Origin: Verrucomicrobiota bacterium
Lineage (GTDB): Bacteria > Verrucomicrobiota > Verrucomicrobiia > Chthoniobacterales > UBA10450
Assembly (NCBI GenBank): GCA_003221295.1
Contig: QHRA01000173.1
Location: 1-45,026 of the forward strand
Length of the DNA stretch: 45,026 nucleotides
Direction: 5' to 3'
This document shows, in pieces, positions 8,272-44,777 of this stretch. The notes beneath the pieces were generated by a model. That model made no database searches. It saw nothing but the letters and a program-made list of their open reading frames with translations, and was not told the origin of the DNA. How positions within the stretch are numbered: the first letter of the stretch is position 1; the number at the start of each line of letters is the position of its first letter. The position numbers and the translations under genes were made by a program.

Positions 8272-8413
8272 GTAGCACAGGCACCTTGTCCGCCACGGGA
8301 CGGACTCGCGGTGGCGAGCCTGTGGGGCCAATGGGCATCTTGCCCGTTGATCACAACGAATAAGGAGCCAGGCAAGATGCCCGGCCTGCCCACAGCCAGG
8401 ATGGCTGTGCTAC
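8272..8413. repeat. Palindromic repeat, family F
   Basis: 142 bases bounded by GTAGCACAG and CTGTGCTAC. Inside are nested inverted pairs: GCCTGTGGGG with CCCACAGCC, and GGGCATCTTGCCCG with GGCAAGATGCCC around a non-repeated loop. An extra inverted word, GTCCGCCACGGGACGGAC, occupies the left arm and also occurs inverted at 5571-5650. The full element recurs at 42732-42841. It fills most of the space between the transpeptidase gene and mfd. Confidence 0.85.
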
Positions 8414-8458
8414 GAGCCGCCTCATTGAAGTTCACACACTTTTCGGCGACAACTTCTA

Positions 8459-11400
8459 GTGGAAAAAAACAGCGCGGAATTCCTGCGGCTGGCTGCGGAA
8501 GCTGAACCGATCCAACGCAAGCTGCGCCAGATCGCAGCGGGCGATTTTCCAGTTTCCTTCTCCCATGTGATCGAGAGCGCACAGCCGTTTGTTGTCGCAA
8601 CCATTGCGGAACATGATCGCCGCAGTATTTGGGTTATCTGCCCGACGGTGCGCGCGCAGGAGCTTTTTTTCGAAAGCCTGTCGAATTGGAATTCGAATGC
8701 CTCGTTCTTACCGGAAGCGGAGTTCGCGGCGGTCGAGAACATTTTGCCGGATCCCGAAATTGCAGCGGAGCGGCTGGCGCTGCTGTCCCAAATCGAAAAG
8801 GAGAACGCCGCCAAAGTAGTCGTCACGACCCGAGCGGCACTGGATCAGCCCGCCCCAAGCCGTGGCACATTGCGCTCGGCTTCGCTTGAAATTCAGCGCG
8901 GGCCGAACATGGCAATGCCTGCGTTGTTGAGCGCATTGTCCGGTGCCGGCTACGAACGCGTCGCCCAGGTTACGACCCGGGGTCAGTTCGCGGTCCGCGG
9001 CGGTATTGTCGATATTTTTTCATGGCAAACCGCCCTGCCGCTGCGGATTGAATTCTACGGCGACGAAATTGAATCGCTGCGTGAATTTGACCTCGATACT
9101 CAAACGTCCGTCCACACTCGCGAGCAGGCGAGTGTGCTTCTGAGCGCGGCCGACGATACCAGCGGTCGCGTCCGGGATTACATCACCCAGGACACCCTCG
9201 TGATCGAGCTCGAACCCGCATTGGAGGGCGGAGCTCCTGCGACGCAGGGCTCGCTGGAGCTCGCCCCTCCAAGCCACATTCAAATTAGCGAAAGCTGGAT
9301 CGAAAATGTTGAGGCAGGGCCGGAGGATTTTTCCGGTGCATTTGTCGAATGCGACATCGGCGAATTCGCCGTTGGCGATTTCGTGCTCGCGGAAACGAAA
9401 CGCGCGCAATTCATCGCGCGGCTCAAGCGATGGCGCGACGAACACGCAACCGTTGCGATCTATTTTCAAACCGAGGGCGAGATCGAGCGTTTTCGCGAGA
9501 TCATTTCGGTCGACGCACTGGCCGGCATAAATCTGCTCGAAGGAACATTGAGCCGCGGGTTTTGTTTTCCCGCCGCCAATCTGGTCATTCTCTCGGCCAA
9601 CGAACTGCTCGGGCGTTTTCCCATCCATGGCCGTCGACGTTTGCGCCGCGCAGAACGACGCAATCGCGCGCAAATTGATTTCAGCGAGCTCAACGAAGGC
9701 GACCTTGTCGTCCACCTCGAGCACGGCATCGGAAGATTTCTCGGGCTAATCGAAATGCCGGCAATAGAGGAGCGAGCTCCGGCGAGCCCGGCGTCGCTGG
9801 AGCTCCGCCCTCCAAAACGAGCGTCGGGGGCGAGACAGGAAGTCCTCGTTTTGGAGTTCGCCGACGAAGCGAAACTCTATGTTCCGCTGGAGCAAGCCTA
9901 TTTGGTTTCCCGTTACGTTGGCGTCGGGAAAAAATCGCCGCCGCTCAGCTCGCTGGCGGACGCGAAATGGGCGCGGGCGAAGAAAAACGCGACCGCCTCT
10001 ATTTTTGATTACGCCGGAAAAATGCTCGCACTTCAGGCCGAGCGCCAGACCAACCCGGGCCACGCCTTTGGCGCCGACACCAAATGGCAGGCGGAGTTCG
10101 AACACTCCTTTCCGTACCGCGAAACCCCCGATCAACTAACCGCGATCATCGATACCAAGACCGACATGGAACAGGCCCAGCCCATGGATCGCCTGATTTG
10201 CGGCGACGTCGGTTTCGGCAAAACCGAGGTCGCCATCCGGGCCGCCTTCAAGGCCGTGATGGACGGCAAACAAGTCGCAGTCCTCGCGCCTACCACCGTG
10301 CTCGCACAACAGCATTTCGAAACTTTTCGGCAACGAATGTTGGATTACCCGATCCGGATCGAGATGCTAAGCCGGTTCCGCTCGCTGGCCGAGCAGAAGA
10401 AAGTCCTACAACTATTGCGCGAAGGTGGGGTCGACATTATCATTGGGACGCACCGCCTCATTTCCGACGATGTGAGTTTCAGAGACCTCGGTCTGGTCGT
10501 GATCGACGAAGAACAGCGCTTCGGAGTTCTGCATAAGGAAAAATTCAAAGAACTGTTCAAGCTTGTCGATCTCCTCACTCTTTCGGCCACACCGATTCCG
10601 CGCACTCTCTATCTCTCGTTAGTCGGCGTCAAAGACATGTCGACCATCGAAACGCCGCCGCAAAATCGGCTTCCGGTCGAAACGGCGGTCTGTGGTTATG
10701 ACGAGCGAATTATTCGCGATGCCATTAATCGCGAGCTGGAGCGCCAGGGGCAGGTTTTTTTTCTGCATAATCGCGTGCAATCGATCGAGAAAGTGCGCGA
10801 TCGCGTTGCTGAACTTTGCCCGGATGCGCGAGTTGAGTTTGGTCACGGCCAGATGGGCTCCGAGGAATTGGAAGCGGTGATGCATCGCTTTGTCATGGGC
10901 ATAATCGATGTGCTGGTCTGCACCACCATCATCGAAAGCGGCCTGGACATTCCAAATGCCAACACCATTATCATTGATCGCGCCGATCGTTTCGGCCTGG
11001 CCGATTTGTATCAACTGCGCGGGCGGGTCGGGCGTGCCGAGCACAAAGCGTACGCTTACCTTTTGCTGCCGCGCGAGCTCATGATGGTCGGCGCCGCGCG
11101 CAAACGAGTCGACGCCATCAAACAATACAGCTCGCTCGGCGCCGGTTTTCGGGTTGCCATGCGCGATCTCGAGATTCGCGGCGCCGGCAGTATTCTCGGC
11201 ACCGCTCAAAGTGGACACATCATGGCAGTGGGTTTCGATCTATATTGCCAATTGCTCAAGCAAGCCGTCGCCCAAATTAAAGGCCAAAAACCGCGCTGGC
11301 GCCTCGAAGTAGAGGTGCGGCTCGATTTCGTCGCCACTAACGAAGCCGAGTTTGTCCACGGCGACGCTGTCGTCTCCGCTTTTCTCCCCCGCAGCTATAT

Positions 11401-11719
11401 CAACGATACCACCCTGCGCATTCAGGCTTATCGGCGGATCGCGGAAATCACCACTGCGGATCACTTGGATCGGCTGATCAATGAATGGCGCGATCGCTTT
11501 GGCGCGTTCCCTGAGGCCGTGGAAAATCTCGTTACCCTGGCCCGAATCAAACTCGCCGCCGCCAAACAGGAAATCACCAGGATCGAAACGCGGGAGGACA
11601 AATTGATGTTGACGAGGCGCGGGGATTTTATACTTGTCGCGGGCAAATTCCCTCGTTTAGTTGCCCCGGAAATCAAAAAGCGGCTGCAGGAAATTCTCGG
11701 GCTGCTTGGCAAACTCTGA
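8459..11719 (+). CDS. mfd: Transcription-repair coupling factor Mfd
   Basis: 1086 residues; releases RNA polymerase stalled at lesions and recruits UvrA. The UvrB-homology N-terminal region spans about 1-330 (RGQFAVRGGIVDIFSW near 180), and the CarD-like polymerase-interaction domain starts near 405 (LNEGDLVVHLEHGIGRFLGL). The helicase motor has GDVGFGKTE (Walker A, near 580), the DEEQ box in VIDEEQRFGV (near 683) and the QLRGRVGRA motif. The TRCF C-terminal domain begins about 955. GTG start at 8459 with no clear ribosome binding site. Two stretches, near 255-272 and 436-452, are encoded by palindromic repeats and look like in-frame insertions. SurA-like follows after 4 bases. Confidence 0.96.
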   Translation: MEKNSAEFLRLAAEAEPIQRKLRQIAAGDFPVSFSHVIESAQPFVVATIAEHDRRSIWVICPTVRAQELFFESLSNWNSNASFLPEAEFAAVENILPDPEIAAERLALLSQIEKENAAKVVVTTRAALDQPAPSRGTLRSASLEIQRGPNMAMPALLSALSGAGYERVAQVTTRGQFAVRGGIVDIFSWQTALPLRIEFYGDEIESLREFDLDTQTSVHTREQASVLLSAADDTSGRVRDYITQDTLVIELEPALEGGAPATQGSLELAPPSHIQISESWIENVEAGPEDFSGAFVECDIGEFAVGDFVLAETKRAQFIARLKRWRDEHATVAIYFQTEGEIERFREIISVDALAGINLLEGTLSRGFCFPAANLVILSANELLGRFPIHGRRRLRRAERRNRAQIDFSELNEGDLVVHLEHGIGRFLGLIEMPAIEERAPASPASLELRPPKRASGARQEVLVLEFADEAKLYVPLEQAYLVSRYVGVGKKSPPLSSLADAKWARAKKNATASIFDYAGKMLALQAERQTNPGHAFGADTKWQAEFEHSFPYRETPDQLTAIIDTKTDMEQAQPMDRLICGDVGFGKTEVAIRAAFKAVMDGKQVAVLAPTTVLAQQHFETFRQRMLDYPIRIEMLSRFRSLAEQKKVLQLLREGGVDIIIGTHRLISDDVSFRDLGLVVIDEEQRFGVLHKEKFKELFKLVDLLTLSATPIPRTLYLSLVGVKDMSTIETPPQNRLPVETAVCGYDERIIRDAINRELERQGQVFFLHNRVQSIEKVRDRVAELCPDARVEFGHGQMGSEELEAVMHRFVMGIIDVLVCTTIIESGLDIPNANTIIIDRADRFGLADLYQLRGRVGRAEHKAYAYLLLPRELMMVGAARKRVDAIKQYSSLGAGFRVAMRDLEIRGAGSILGTAQSGHIMAVGFDLYCQLLKQAVAQIKGQKPRWRLEVEVRLDFVATNEAEFVHGDAVVSAFLPRSYINDTTLRIQAYRRIAEITTADHLDRLINEWRDRFGAFPEAVENLVTLARIKLAAAKQEITRIETREDKLMLTRRGDFILVAGKFPRLVAPEIKKRLQEILGLLGKL
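9221..9272. repeat. Palindromic repeat family B inside mfd (site 1)
   Basis: Inverted arms TTGGAGGGCGGAGCTCC (9221-9237) and GGAGCTCGCCCCTCCAA (9256-9272) match at 15 of 17 positions around an 18-base spacer. It encodes about residues 255-272 of Mfd (LEGGAPATQGSLELAPP). The same words occur at 9765-9814 and, half-length, at about 5660-5690 outside any gene. The frame is kept open through it. Confidence 0.8.
9765..9814. repeat. Palindromic repeat family B inside mfd (site 2)
   Basis: Arms TAGAGGAGCGAGCTCC (9765-9780) and GGAGCTCCGCCCTCCA (9799-9814) are inverted copies (12 of 16 pairs). It encodes about residues 436-452 (IEERAPASPASLELRPP), between GRFLGL and the conserved VLEFADEAKLYVPLEQ of the polymerase-interaction domain, where other Mfd proteins have a much shorter linker (from memory). 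Confidence 0.8.
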
Positions 11720-17142: not shown

Positions 17143-17204
17143 TGTAGCGGCGGTCTATGACCGCCGAAAGTATCCGAAATCGGCGGTCATAGACCGCCGC
17201 TACA
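17143..17204. repeat. Palindromic repeat family A (double hairpin)
   Basis: Two inverted arms of 24 bases, TGTAGCGGCGGTCTATGACC... (17143-17166) and its exact complement (17181-17204), are separated by 14 bases. Each arm is itself a hairpin (CGGCGGTC, loop TAT or ATA, GACCGCCG). It separates the ATPase and permease genes of MacB. The stop codon of the ATPase (17187-17189) lies inside the right arm, and the permease start lies 7 bases from the left arm. Confidence 0.92.
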
Positions 17205-31682: not shown

Positions 31683-31744
31683 TGTCGCGGCGCTCTATGA
31701 GCGCCGAAAGTAACAAAGCTCGGCGGTCATAGACCGCCGCTACA
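31683..31744. repeat. Palindromic repeat family A (mixed stems)
   Basis: Left arm GTCGCGGCGCTCTATGAGCG... (31683-31706) and right arm CGGCGGTCATAGACCGCCGC... (31721-31744). Each arm folds on itself (GCTC-TAT-GAGC and GGTC-ATA-GACC stems), but the two arms no longer pair perfectly with each other. It lies between the thioesterase ATG and the citrate synthase stop. Confidence 0.9.
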
Positions 31745-38386: not shown

Positions 38387-40219
38387 CTACACCATCGGAC
38401 GAAAACGCCCGACGATTTCCTGCAAGCGGCCGGTGATTTGACCGAGCGAACAAACTTCCACCGCTTCTAACAACGCAGGAAAGCAGTTTTCGCCGCGTTC
38501 AACGACCGCGCCCAGTTTATCGAGCGCGCGCTTTGATTTCTCCGCGTTTTTCTTTTTGAACTTCTTCAACCGCTCGACTTGCAATTTTTGTTTCGCTCGG
38601 GGAGTCCTCGCCAACTCGACCTCAGGCATCTCATCCGCGCCGTTGCGATAGCGATTTAATCCGACGATCGGACGCGTTCCGTCATAAATTTGTTGTTCGT
38701 AACGGTGGGCGGCATTTTGGATCTGACTGCGCTGATAACGATTCTCCACCGCCGCGAGCACACCGCCGAGCGATTCGATCTCACGAAATTCATCGAGAAT
38801 CGCTTTCTCAACCGCGCGCTCGACTGCTTTCATCCCGGGCGAGCCGCTCAAGATGTTCATGGTGTGCTTAAAGATTCCGGATTCTTCGAGCAGAATTGCC
38901 TGTCCATGCGCGGCAAGACGAATCCATTCCTCGCTTGGCGTGGTAAACGGTTCGTCGGCGCTGTTTGAATGACACGAGTTGGTGCCGTTCATGTAAGCCA
39001 GCATCAATTCGGCCGCGGTGCGGGTGAGGTTATTTTTGAACTCGGCGGCGATGAGCGACCGCCCGCTCGTTTGCGTGTGCAGTTTGAACATCTGTCCGCG
39101 TGCGTTCGCGCCAAAGACGTCGCGCATTCCGATCGCCCAGATTTTTCGCGAAACACGCGCGAGCGCGATGTATTCGACGTCGAGTCCGCAATCGAGGAAG
39201 AAAGAAAGCCGTGGTGCAAACTGATCGACCGGCACGCCCCGCGCACTTAGCATTTCGGCGTAAGCGAAACCATTGGAGAGGGTATAGGCCGCTTGTTGCA
39301 CCGGCGTCGATCCCGCTTCGCCGATGTGATAACCACTGATCGAAACCGGATACCAGCGCGGCATGTTCGCCGTTGTCCATTCAATCATGTCGCAAAGAAA
39401 ACGCAGCGACGCTTCCGTCGGAAAGATCGTTTCATTCTGCGCCTGGACTTCCTTGAAAATGTCGGCCTGAATCGTGCCGCGCAGATTCGGCACCACCTTC
39501 GCACCGAAGCGACGTTTTGCCGCCGCGATGTACATCGCCATGATAATCGGCGCCGGACCGCTGATTGTCATCGAGGCGGAAAAATTTGGAGCGCCGAGCT
39601 CAAAGCCATCGTAGAGCCGTACCATGTCTTCCACCGTGTCGACCGCGACTCCACCCTCGCCAATCTTGCCGAAGACACCGTCGGCATCGGAATCGATTCC
39701 GTAGAGGGTTGGGCCATCGAACGCGGTACTGAGACGTTTCGAGCGCTGATGCGCGCTCAAGAAATGGAAACGCTTGTTCGTGTCCTCAGCCAGCATCAGG
39801 CCGGAAAACAAACGAGTCGGTTCCTCCTGTAGCGGCGGCCGTGTCGGCCGCTCCGCGGGTTTTGCACGCGACACGCGCGCCGCTACAGCTTCGCCGTTTT
39901 TCTGGAAGCTCTCGATCTCGCGCAACGGCTCGAGATACATCTCGCGATAAGCGCCGTTCAGATACGGGAATTCACCCGGCAAACCATCGCCAAAAAGGTA
40001 GCGCGCGATTTCGCCCGGCTCGTCAATCTCGGGCAAAGCCAGGCGCGGCAAAGGCAATCCAGTCGGCGCTTTTGAAATTGGGATTTCCGCTTTGACCTTG
40101 TTCCAGCGGTCGGTCACTGCCTGCGCGAATTTTTCATCACTCCGCGCCCGCTTGACTTGTTCAAGCACAAAACGCCCGTGCTTTTCGACTGCTTCAACGA
40201 CTGCTCCAAGTTTGCTCAT
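38387..40219 (-). CDS. IcmF-type acyl-CoA mutase catalytic subunit (stand-alone)
   Basis: 610 residues; the B12-dependent mutase barrel without its own B12-binding domain. Marks: FPYLNGAYREMY, TNKRFHFLSAHQRSKRLSTA, NLRGTIQADIFKEVQAQNET, PVSISGYHIGEAGSTPVQQA, KLHTQTSGRSL and NSCHSNSADEPFTTPSEEWI. The tail (RLKKFKKKNAEKSKRALDKL, EVCSLGQITGRLQEIVGRFR) is that of IcmF, not of methylmalonyl-CoA mutase. Gln replaces the methylmalonyl-type Arg in VQAQNET. Residues 111-131 come from an in-frame palindromic repeat. Start overlaps the B12/GTPase gene stop by 4 bases. Probably isomerises isobutyryl-, butyryl- or a related acyl-CoA. Confidence 0.9.
   Translation of the reverse strand: MSKLGAVVEAVEKHGRFVLEQVKRARSDEKFAQAVTDRWNKVKAEIPISKAPTGLPLPRLALPEIDEPGEIARYLFGDGLPGEFPYLNGAYREMYLEPLREIESFQKNGEAVAARVSRAKPAERPTRPPLQEEPTRLFSGLMLAEDTNKRFHFLSAHQRSKRLSTAFDGPTLYGIDSDADGVFGKIGEGGVAVDTVEDMVRLYDGFELGAPNFSASMTISGPAPIIMAMYIAAAKRRFGAKVVPNLRGTIQADIFKEVQAQNETIFPTEASLRFLCDMIEWTTANMPRWYPVSISGYHIGEAGSTPVQQAAYTLSNGFAYAEMLSARGVPVDQFAPRLSFFLDCGLDVEYIALARVSRKIWAIGMRDVFGANARGQMFKLHTQTSGRSLIAAEFKNNLTRTAAELMLAYMNGTNSCHSNSADEPFTTPSEEWIRLAAHGQAILLEESGIFKHTMNILSGSPGMKAVERAVEKAILDEFREIESLGGVLAAVENRYQRSQIQNAAHRYEQQIYDGTRPIVGLNRYRNGADEMPEVELARTPRAKQKLQVERLKKFKKKNAEKSKRALDKLGAVVERGENCFPALLEAVEVCSLGQITGRLQEIVGRFRPMV
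39828..39887. repeat. Palindromic repeat family A inside the mutase gene
   Basis: Exactly 60 bases. Outer arms TGTAGCGGCGGCCGTGTCG (39828-39846) and CGACACGCGCGCCGCTACA (39869-39887) pair at 17 of 19 positions. Each half also folds alone (GCGGCCG-TGT-CGGCCGC and CGCG-ACA-CGCG), the double-hairpin plan of 17143-17204. It encodes residues about 111-131 (VAARVSRAKPAERPTRPPL), between EMYLEPLREI and the conserved EEPTRLFSG. Confidence 0.9.
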
Positions 40220-41361
40220 TTGTTCCTCTTTCGCTTCGTAATTAACTCGAACAATTCATCCACGCCAGGATCACGATGGCGTTTGGCAACCGTGGCAACG
40301 ATTTCCTGTTTGCGCTTGTTCTGCGTCAATCGGTGTTCGATTTCGGCCAACGCGGCCTTTGCCCGCTCCAGATCAGTCTTGTTCACCACCACGACGTCGG
40401 CGACATCGAGCATGACAATCTTTTGCAACTGCAAGCGCGCCCCGTAATCGGGATTCATGACCAATACGGTTTGATCGACCAGTTTGTTGCGAAACGGCAG
40501 CGCCTCCTGGCCGGTGCCGACCGTTTCGATGATGACGTAATCGAATCCAGAACGTGCCAGCAGCGCGAGACAGCTTTCGGTCGCTGGCGAAAGTCCTCCA
40601 GCCTGCCCGCGCGTGGCCATGCTGCGCATAAACACCCGATCGTCCTGCGAGTTGATCATCGTGGCACGATCGCCGAGCAACGCGCCTTCGCCGATCACGC
40701 TCGGGTCGTGCGATAAAATTGCGATGCGCGTTTTGCTGTCGCGCTGAAGAAAACGCAAAACCAGCTCATCGATCAACGTCGTTTTGCCTGCGCCACCCGG
40801 ACCGGTAAAACCAATCACTTTAGATGTTCGATCTTTGGTTCGAGCCGCACTGGCATCATTTGATGGTTGATGTTTTCCTCCTCTCGAAGCCGCCTCTTCA
40901 AGTTCGGTCAATTTCCGCGCCAGCGCGAGGTCGGGCTTTGATTTAACGCGGCGCTTTTTCCTTTTGCCGTAATGCTTTTTCACATAGTCGGCCATCTCGG
41001 TGAGCGACGTGCCGGCAAAGAAAATTTCCTCGACGCCTTTGCGCTTCATTTGCCGGGCGTCGTCGTGCGTGATCGTGCCCCCGCCCCCGCCGAAAACTGC
41101 TATGTCATTCGCGCCGTTCTTCTTCAATTGGCTAACGACATCGGCAAAAAAATCGATGTGCCCGCCGTTGTAACTGGAAATCCCGATCGCGGCCACATCC
41201 TCTTGGATAGCCGCGCGCACAATATCGCCGACATAACGATGAAATCCGAGGTAAACGACTTCGATTCCATGCCGGATAAATTCGAGATTAATGGTGTTAA
41301 TGGCGCTGTCGTGTCCATCGCAGATCGGAACCGCAGTAAGAATGCGAATCGGTAAAGCCAT
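40216..41361 (-). CDS. Fused B12-binding domain and MeaI/ArgK-type GTPase chaperone (IcmF N-terminal half)
   Basis: 381 residues. Residues 1-130: B12-binding domain with ICDGHDSAINTINLEFIRHG (base-off His), GISSYNGGHIDFFADVV and VFGGGGGTITHDDARQM, all IcmF-like. Residues 130-180 are a Lys/Arg-rich linker. Residues 183-381: G3E GTPase with IGFTGPGGAGKTTLIDELVL (P-loop), LSHDPSVIGEGALLGDRATM, VFMRSMATRGQAGGLS, IIETVGTGQ and VVVNKTDLERAKAAL (NKxD). It delivers and protects adenosylcobalamin for the mutase coded by the next gene (ATGA overlap). In known IcmF this segment is fused to the mutase. A family A repeat lies 9 bases before its ATG. Confidence 0.93.
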   Translation of the reverse strand: MALPIRILTAVPICDGHDSAINTINLEFIRHGIEVVYLGFHRYVGDIVRAAIQEDVAAIGISSYNGGHIDFFADVVSQLKKNGANDIAVFGGGGGTITHDDARQMKRKGVEEIFFAGTSLTEMADYVKKHYGKRKKRRVKSKPDLALARKLTELEEAASRGGKHQPSNDASAARTKDRTSKVIGFTGPGGAGKTTLIDELVLRFLQRDSKTRIAILSHDPSVIGEGALLGDRATMINSQDDRVFMRSMATRGQAGGLSPATESCLALLARSGFDYVIIETVGTGQEALPFRNKLVDQTVLVMNPDYGARLQLQKIVMLDVADVVVVNKTDLERAKAALAEIEHRLTQNKRKQEIVATVAKRHRDPGVDELFELITKRKRNK

Positions 41362-41370
41362 TTAAGTATT

Positions 41371-41432
41371 TGTAGCGGCGGTCTATGACCGCCGTTTTCC
41401 TTCGACCACGGCGCTCATAGAGCGCCGCTACA
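41371..41432. repeat. Palindromic repeat family A (mixed stems, opposite order)
   Basis: Left arm TGTAGCGGCGGTCTATGACC... (41371-41394) and right arm CGGCGCTCATAGAGCGCCGC... (41409-41432). The GGTC/GACC stem is on the left and the GCTC/GAGC stem on the right, the reverse of 31683-31744. It lies in the divergent space between the B12/GTPase gene and the plus-strand membrane protein gene. Confidence 0.9.
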
Positions 41433-42735: not shown

Positions 42736-42841
42736 CACGGGCTTCCAGCCTGTGGGGCAACCGGGCATCTTGCCCGGTTAGTATATATCCCAGCAACGGG
42801 CAAGATGCCCGTTGGCCTCACAGCCAAGATGGCTGTGCTAC
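42732..42841. repeat. Palindromic repeat family F (complete)
   Basis: 110 bases bounded by GTAGCACGGGC and GGCTGTGCTAC. Nested arms: CCAGCCTGTGGGG with CCTCACAGCC, and CGGGCATCTTGCCCG with CGGGCAAGATGCCCG. The short loop reads TTAGTATATATCCCAGCAA. It spans the space between fabG and the convergent cupin gene and gives fabG its stop codon. Same family as 8272-8413. Confidence 0.92.
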
Positions 42842-42847
42842 GGCGAA

Positions 42848-44712: not shown

Positions 44713-44753
44713 AAACAGAATTTCGCGCGAAACCCGGCTCCGCTCAAAGGTAT

Positions 44754-44777
44754 ATAGCGGCGGTCTATGACCGCGCG
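44754..44777. repeat. Half copy of repeat family A upstream of dinB
   Basis: ATAGCGGCGGTCTATGACCG (44754 onward) then CGCG: one hairpin (GCGGTC-TAT-GACCGC) of the usual double unit, with no second arm within 100 bases. It lies in the dinB leader or promoter region. Confidence 0.75.

Follow-up and report, generated by a model that had tools for sequence, protein, structure and literature searches.

We analysed a window of 45,026 nucleotides, which is contig C273 of a 2.98-Mb genome bin (G000, 87% complete) whose nearest named relatives are soil Verrucomicrobia (Chthoniobacterales), for example the isolates AV106, AV26, and AV12. The features of the window are collected in Table 1. An IcmF-type enzyme is split here into two overlapping genes, one for the B12-binding and GTPase subunit and one for the mutase subunit (P0001), and the partner gene overlaps the mutase start by 4 bases. 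The mutase subunit matched the NCBIfam IcmF model with 1.9e-157, below the cut-off of that model for the fused protein, and its closest solved chain was IcmF 4XC6 (4.9e-125). The enzyme core is under strong purifying selection (dN/dS 0.014-0.041), which indicates that the genes bearing the element described below work. The mutase subunit has a linker of 35 residues (residues 97-131), which is hypervariable among 68 orthologs. About 6 residues lie between the positions of 4XC6 that align to mutase residues 91 and 132, and Opitutae orthologs have only a few residues there. Thus, the proposal in the earlier note that an in-frame repeat stretch lies where IcmF proteins have a short linker was borne out. 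AlphaFold, run on 43 orthologs, gave a mean pLDDT of 63, and because confidence was poor over the linker and much of the core (including catalytic regions) alike, no claim on the exposure of the insert is drawn from them.

Table 1. Features of the 45,026-nt window and the evidence for them.
Feature	Position	Strand	Evidence
mfd	8459..11719		Pfam TRCF, UvrB_inter, CarD_TRCF_RID
In-frame repeat in mfd, copy 1	9215..9272		
In-frame repeat in mfd, copy 2	9758..9815		
Composite palindromic repeat, copy 1	8317..8414		
Composite palindromic repeat, copy 2	42747..42842		
Intergenic REPIN, family A (R2)	17143..17204	.	fold, R2 covariance model
Intergenic REPIN, family A (R2)	31683..31744	.	fold, R2 covariance model
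Intergenic REPIN, family A (R2), just upstream of split IcmF operon	41371..41432	.	fold, R2 covariance model
Degenerate family A REP, foot TATAG	44753..44777		
Mutase (MM_CoA_mutase) subunit P0001 of split IcmF-type enzyme, 610 aa	38387..40219	-	Pfam PF01642 4.4e-116
Partner subunit, B12-binding and MeaB-type GTPase	40216..41361	-	Pfam B12-binding and MeaB
Hypervariable linker of mutase subunit	39827..39931	-	68 orthologs, protein alignment
REPIN, family R1, head-to-head dimer of GTAG-tagged REPs, 60 nt, in frame	39828..39887	.	sequence, fold z-scores, two-ended pattern, covariance model
REP 1, TGTAG foot and hairpin GCGGCCG-TGT-CGGCCGC, perfect 7-bp stem	39828..39851	+	42.8 bits with R1 model
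Spacer between REP 1 and REP 2, 12 nt	39852..39863	.	sequence; most divergent part, G000 vs G002/G007
REP 2, TGTAG foot and hairpin, one G.T in 7 pairs	39864..39887	-	38.3 bits with R1 model

The mutase linker contains a 60-nt element whose coordinates, length, ends, and reading frame had been given earlier, and all of them were confirmed. Its sequence is TGTAGCGGCGGCCGTGTCGGCCGC-TCCGCGGGTTTT-GCACGCGACACGCGCGCCGCTACA, that is, two 24-nt hairpins with outward TGTAG feet around a spacer, and its termini (TGTAGCGGCG...CGCCGCTACA) form perfect 10-nt inverted ends. We found 40 of the 60 positions to be self-complementary, compared with a mean of 18.4 in 20,000 shuffles (sd 4.8, max 38). The RNA of the element folds at -35 kcal/mol (z = -2.3 and -2.8). 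Both halves carry GTAG at the hairpin foot, as GTAG REPs and REPINs do, and their 7-bp stems and TGT loop lie within the range of short palindromes (stem 5-13 bp, loop 2-20 nt). The inner hairpins had been described as preserved, which is nearly right: the outer ends and the plus-strand stem are perfect, but the minus-strand stem contains a G.T pair. The two-ended pattern of the element occurred at 11 places in the genome, and the same search with the pattern read backwards gave 0. The element differs from a classical MITE with target-site duplication in that its flanks GGCGAAGC and GGAGGAAC share no direct duplication.

The mutase gene reads the element as GC[T GTA GCG GCG ... CCG CTA CA]G, so 19 whole codons (V112-L130) are accompanied by the third base of Ala111 and by bases one and two of Gln131. 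The element has the length of 20 codons, as the earlier note had it, but lies one base off the codon borders. REP 2 is the half that is read first and codes VAARVSRA. The 19 whole codons give the peptide VAARVSRAKPAERPTRPPL, and peptides spanning the junctions of the insert can be taken, for example, from VSRAKPAERPTRPPLQ. The element had also been called the clearest in-frame insertion in the window. It is a real in-frame repeat but not the only one, for mfd has two in-frame copies of a different family, which are partly palindromic (PALEGGAPATQGSLELAPPS and PAIEERAPASPASLELRPPK).

Two covariance models were built for the repeats of the genome, namely R1 (TGT loop, stem GCGGCCG/CGGCCGC and relatives) and R2 (core TCTATGA, formerly called family A). 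The mutase element was the best match of the R1 model, each half scoring 38-43 bits, and about 50 further copies were found. Both halves were in the R1 training set, so the evidence for membership in R1 is these further copies. The R2 model search of the genome did not list the mutase element, whose core is GTGTC versus TCTATGA in family A copies, and the two models together ruled out its membership in family A. Of the tie to family A that had been proposed, the common termini remain: the TGTAGCGGCG end is shared by R1 and R2, since the R1 model finds the element and the R2 model does not, and the hairpins belong to the second REP family, R1. After merging, the genome held 40 R1 elements, of which 16 stand in groups of at least two, and 49 R2 elements, of which 18 do so; both families thus show the high copy number, with singles and head-to-head dimers, of GTAG REPs and REPINs. 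R1 repeats were present in 76 of 83 genomes of the family. Locus L043 has a third kind of GTAG hairpin, with a CCGCGG stem. The window also has two copies, 84-90% alike, of another composite palindromic repeat with the layout AGCCTGTGGGGC...GGGCATCTTGCCCG ... GGCAAGATGCCCG ... ATGGCTGTGCTACG.

We examined the bases beside the feet and found that C precedes TGTAG in 38 of 54 R1 copies (P about 1e-10) and in 53 of 68 R2 copies (P about 1e-17), which places CT next to GTAG in 91 of the 122 copies. RAYT transposases cleave REPs at CT (PMC8266576), and thus a CT at the GTAG foot is the expected scar. A RAYT-type Y1 transposase gene (Pfam Y1_Tnp) lies between two inverted R2 REPs of the same genome (C87:167-190 and 705-728), and its closest solved structure was TnpA-REP 4ER8 (8.4e-7). 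The seven Y1_Tnp loci of this incomplete assembly were searched for a RAYT between R1-type REPs, and none turned up.

In G000, 20 of the 89 elements are in frame inside 18 conserved genes, as confirmed by NCBIfam. These are the genes for a pyruvate dehydrogenase (PDH) E1/E2 fusion, queG (two copies), dnaE, ispG, pcrA/uvrD, trpE, gluQ, a VioC-like monooxygenase, mutS, pheT, a YdiJ-like oxidase, nuoN, ileS (two elements), gamma-glutamyltransferase, tgt, uvrA (two elements), and the mutase. RimO was excluded from the count, because its REP sits before the conserved start. R1 elements were inside genes more often than R2 elements (13 of 40 versus 7 of 49, P 0.046). Among 60 R1 loci from relatives, tgt, ispG, queG, uvrA, the VioC-like monooxygenase, and E2 appeared again, and further hits were rho, putA, and a family B polymerase. 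The REPs of E2 and PutA in relatives often fall right in an interdomain linker. In G000, the queuosine-pathway genes tgt, queG (two copies), and gluQ carry in-frame REPs (L208, L231, L162, L196), and tgt and queG also do so in relatives.

The reading frame of these elements was uniform. All 16 confirmed forward elements of G000 are read as (T)GTA-GCG-GCG (Val-Ala-Ala). For R2 this frame is forced, because the other frames meet TAG or TGA. The R1 repeat is also open in the frame TGT-AGC-GGC, yet this frame was avoided in 11 of 11 cases in G000 (probability 6e-5, weighted by the positions of CT dinucleotides in these genes) and in 13 of 13 Pfam-confirmed cases from relatives, which are partly orthologous and therefore not independent. 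The used frame gives VAAGVSPA and the avoided one gives the Cys/Arg-rich CSGGRVAR, against which selection probably acts. Four long ORFs without a Pfam match (L236 and L286, in other frames, and L280 and L289) were set aside as spurious.

The linker was then read in 68 orthologous sequences of the family, of which 45 were without a recognisable REP, 3 had apparent REP scars (G025, G086, and G098), and 20 had REP elements. Five genus-mates (G002, G007, G003, G010, and G008) have related REPINs in the linker, so the insertion is neither recent nor unique to G000. G001 has no REP there, and G006 has a single one. The linker of G016 holds a REP pair of a third type, and G024, from another genus, has a full 63-nt REPIN that its nearest relatives are without. 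Several genomes of the large genus g4 have REPINs and their sisters have a plain 36-residue segment. The sister pairs G088/G094, G080/G013, G072/G090, and G024/G036 each consist of one genome with the element and one without it. On a tree built without the linker, parsimony gave 12 changes for the presence and absence of REPs. The 3' junctions of linker REPs vary (EEPTR, QAEEPTR, and SRPPEEPTR). Together with the 12 changes, this indicates several insertions, some of which recombination may explain.

In REP-free relatives the linker is filled with K/N/G-rich sequence of similar total length. The exact empty site of the G000 copy was absent among the family linkers, and the G000 linker minus the element is shorter than any REP-free family linker, so sequence was also lost or replaced. 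The reading of the element as a clean insert of 20 additional residues therefore had to be given up, because the linker is hypervariable and the net gain is not simply 20. A search for a similar stretch in repeat-free relatives, suggested earlier as a test against an insertion, found no VAA...RPPLQ-like peptide in any REP-free linker, including those of all six ortholog-bearing genomes in which no R1 repeats were detected, a number too small for significance. In G092, G093, and G079 (L112, L121, and L124), what fills the mutase linker is a GC-rich element that appears to be of another kind (for example GRARPEPARRGEGAP and GRARAQHARGGEGAP). In each of the bins G024 (C223 and C273) and G073 (C5 and C186), the mutase gene is present in two versions, of which just one has a REPIN; these may be either paralogs or a mixture of strains.

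We consider it very probable that the mutase element is a RAYT-mobilised REPIN that a disordered linker tolerates as a coding passenger. Its two head-to-head GTAG-tagged REPs would move as one non-autonomous unit through the action of a RAYT (REP-associated Y1 transposase), and an ancestor of part of the genus would have gained this unit, or a linker allele with it, at a CT dinucleotide of the mutase gene. The recipient linker probably tolerates almost any sequence. The length of the unit is a multiple of 3, and read as GTA-GCG-GCG it has no stop and gives a mild Ala/Val/Arg/Pro peptide; with such a frame and peptide the enzyme would have kept working and the element would have stayed, its 20 residues presumably exposed and neutral. 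Such elements would have entered the mutase linker and the linkers of other core genes repeatedly in the family.

This tolerance could instead be usefulness, if the peptide or an mRNA hairpin tuned the enzyme or its expression and was maintained by selection. The element does persist in the five genus-mates and is shared across deep splits, and between G000 and G002 the REP arms have 2 differences in 48 bases and the spacer has 4 in 12, at a core dS of 0.35. However, arms and GTAG feet have decayed in many relatives (G083, G084, G091, G072, and G010), contrary to what one would expect if a function of the DNA or RNA were maintained, and some copies look like scars. Moreover, close sisters without the element have an equally conserved enzyme, and the element itself has nearly the same dN and dS, a comparison of six differences only. 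We regard a selected function as improbable. The mutase linkers vary greatly and consist in part of KNG repeats, so that an immobile GC-rich linker might be thought palindromic by chance or slippage, but both halves match the genome-wide family of about 50 copies, the backward pattern gives none, and the same elements occur between genes and in unrelated genes. Family membership refutes this idea, and we give it virtually no credence.

The apparent repeated insertions might also go back for the most part to one old insertion, which homologous recombination then spread and which was lost on many occasions. The 3' junction ...PLQ|EEPTR is common to g1 and several g4 genomes, and upstream of the element G000, G002, and G007 have the ESF(E/Q)KN(G/D)E of g4 and not the ETGSYG of their nearest relatives; the identical junctions suggest that recombination of the linker, and not new insertion, spread some of the copies. 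The elements of G024, G083, and G084/G072, the single REP of G006, and the different REP type of G016 are hard to derive from that insertion without new events, and we see a single origin as a real possibility that we nevertheless doubt.

A wider view may be raised tentatively, although we think it rather unlikely. R1 may now be coding-compatible in this verrucomicrobial family, stop-free and mild in the used frame, and may recurrently enter open linkers in core enzymes (IcmF mutase, IspG, Tgt, QueG, UvrA, and pyruvate dehydrogenase E2), so that it would supply the proteome with new linker sequence on a lasting basis.

Although REPs are by name extragenic, about one in five of the elements detected here is read in frame within a conserved gene. 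Dozens of related genomes make it possible to follow, for each gene, how coding REPs are gained, in which frame they are read, and how they decay. Thereby it can be tested in what way mobile hairpins contribute protein sequence, which linkers take it up, and whether the peptides are neutral. For annotation, VAAGVSPA, VEAAVSAA, AADTAAAT, and RPTRPPLQ stretches in Chthoniobacterales proteins should be taken as repeat-derived.

Bertels and Rainey reportedly described REPINs or BIMEs with RAYTs in 2011. The repeats of G000 resemble this system (TnpA-REP, PMC8266576) in the two inverted REPs as a putative mobile unit, in a RAYT gene flanked by REPs, here those of R2, and in CT next to GTAG as the expected site of cleavage. 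However, REPINs and BIMEs are mainly extragenic, in contrast to the coding share found here. Rickettsia palindromic elements (RPE), as summarised in PMC3733652, are in-frame palindromic repeats in ORFs of working proteins, and that summary classes RPE-4 and RPE-6 as CGTC repeats without a dedicated transposase. The likeness to RPE, as far as their description goes, is one of behaviour, namely in-frame palindromic insertion. RPE belong to a different phylum, and unlike RPE-4 and RPE-6 the mutase element carries GTAG and sits in a genome with RAYTs.

Di Nocera et al. (2013, PMC3733652) described intragenic GTAG REP dimers that code 20-30 residues in intact ORFs and are most numerous in the verrucomicrobium Opitutus terrae. 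Their REPs have a 6-13 bp stem and a short loop and are mostly head-to-head dimers; uvrA, polymerase, and tRNA-modification genes carry them, and flexible linkers were proposed as tolerant sites. The mutase element shares the GTAG foot, the stem and loop, the head-to-head dimer, and the position inside an intact ORF, but the host family and the REP families are different. The mutase REPIN is thus of a known kind, that of intragenic GTAG REP dimers. Beyond that work, our analysis has added the comparative history of one linker, in which the orthologs of 68 relatives show gain, variety of junctions, and decay, together with the CT flank in this family and the documented rule of a fixed frame.
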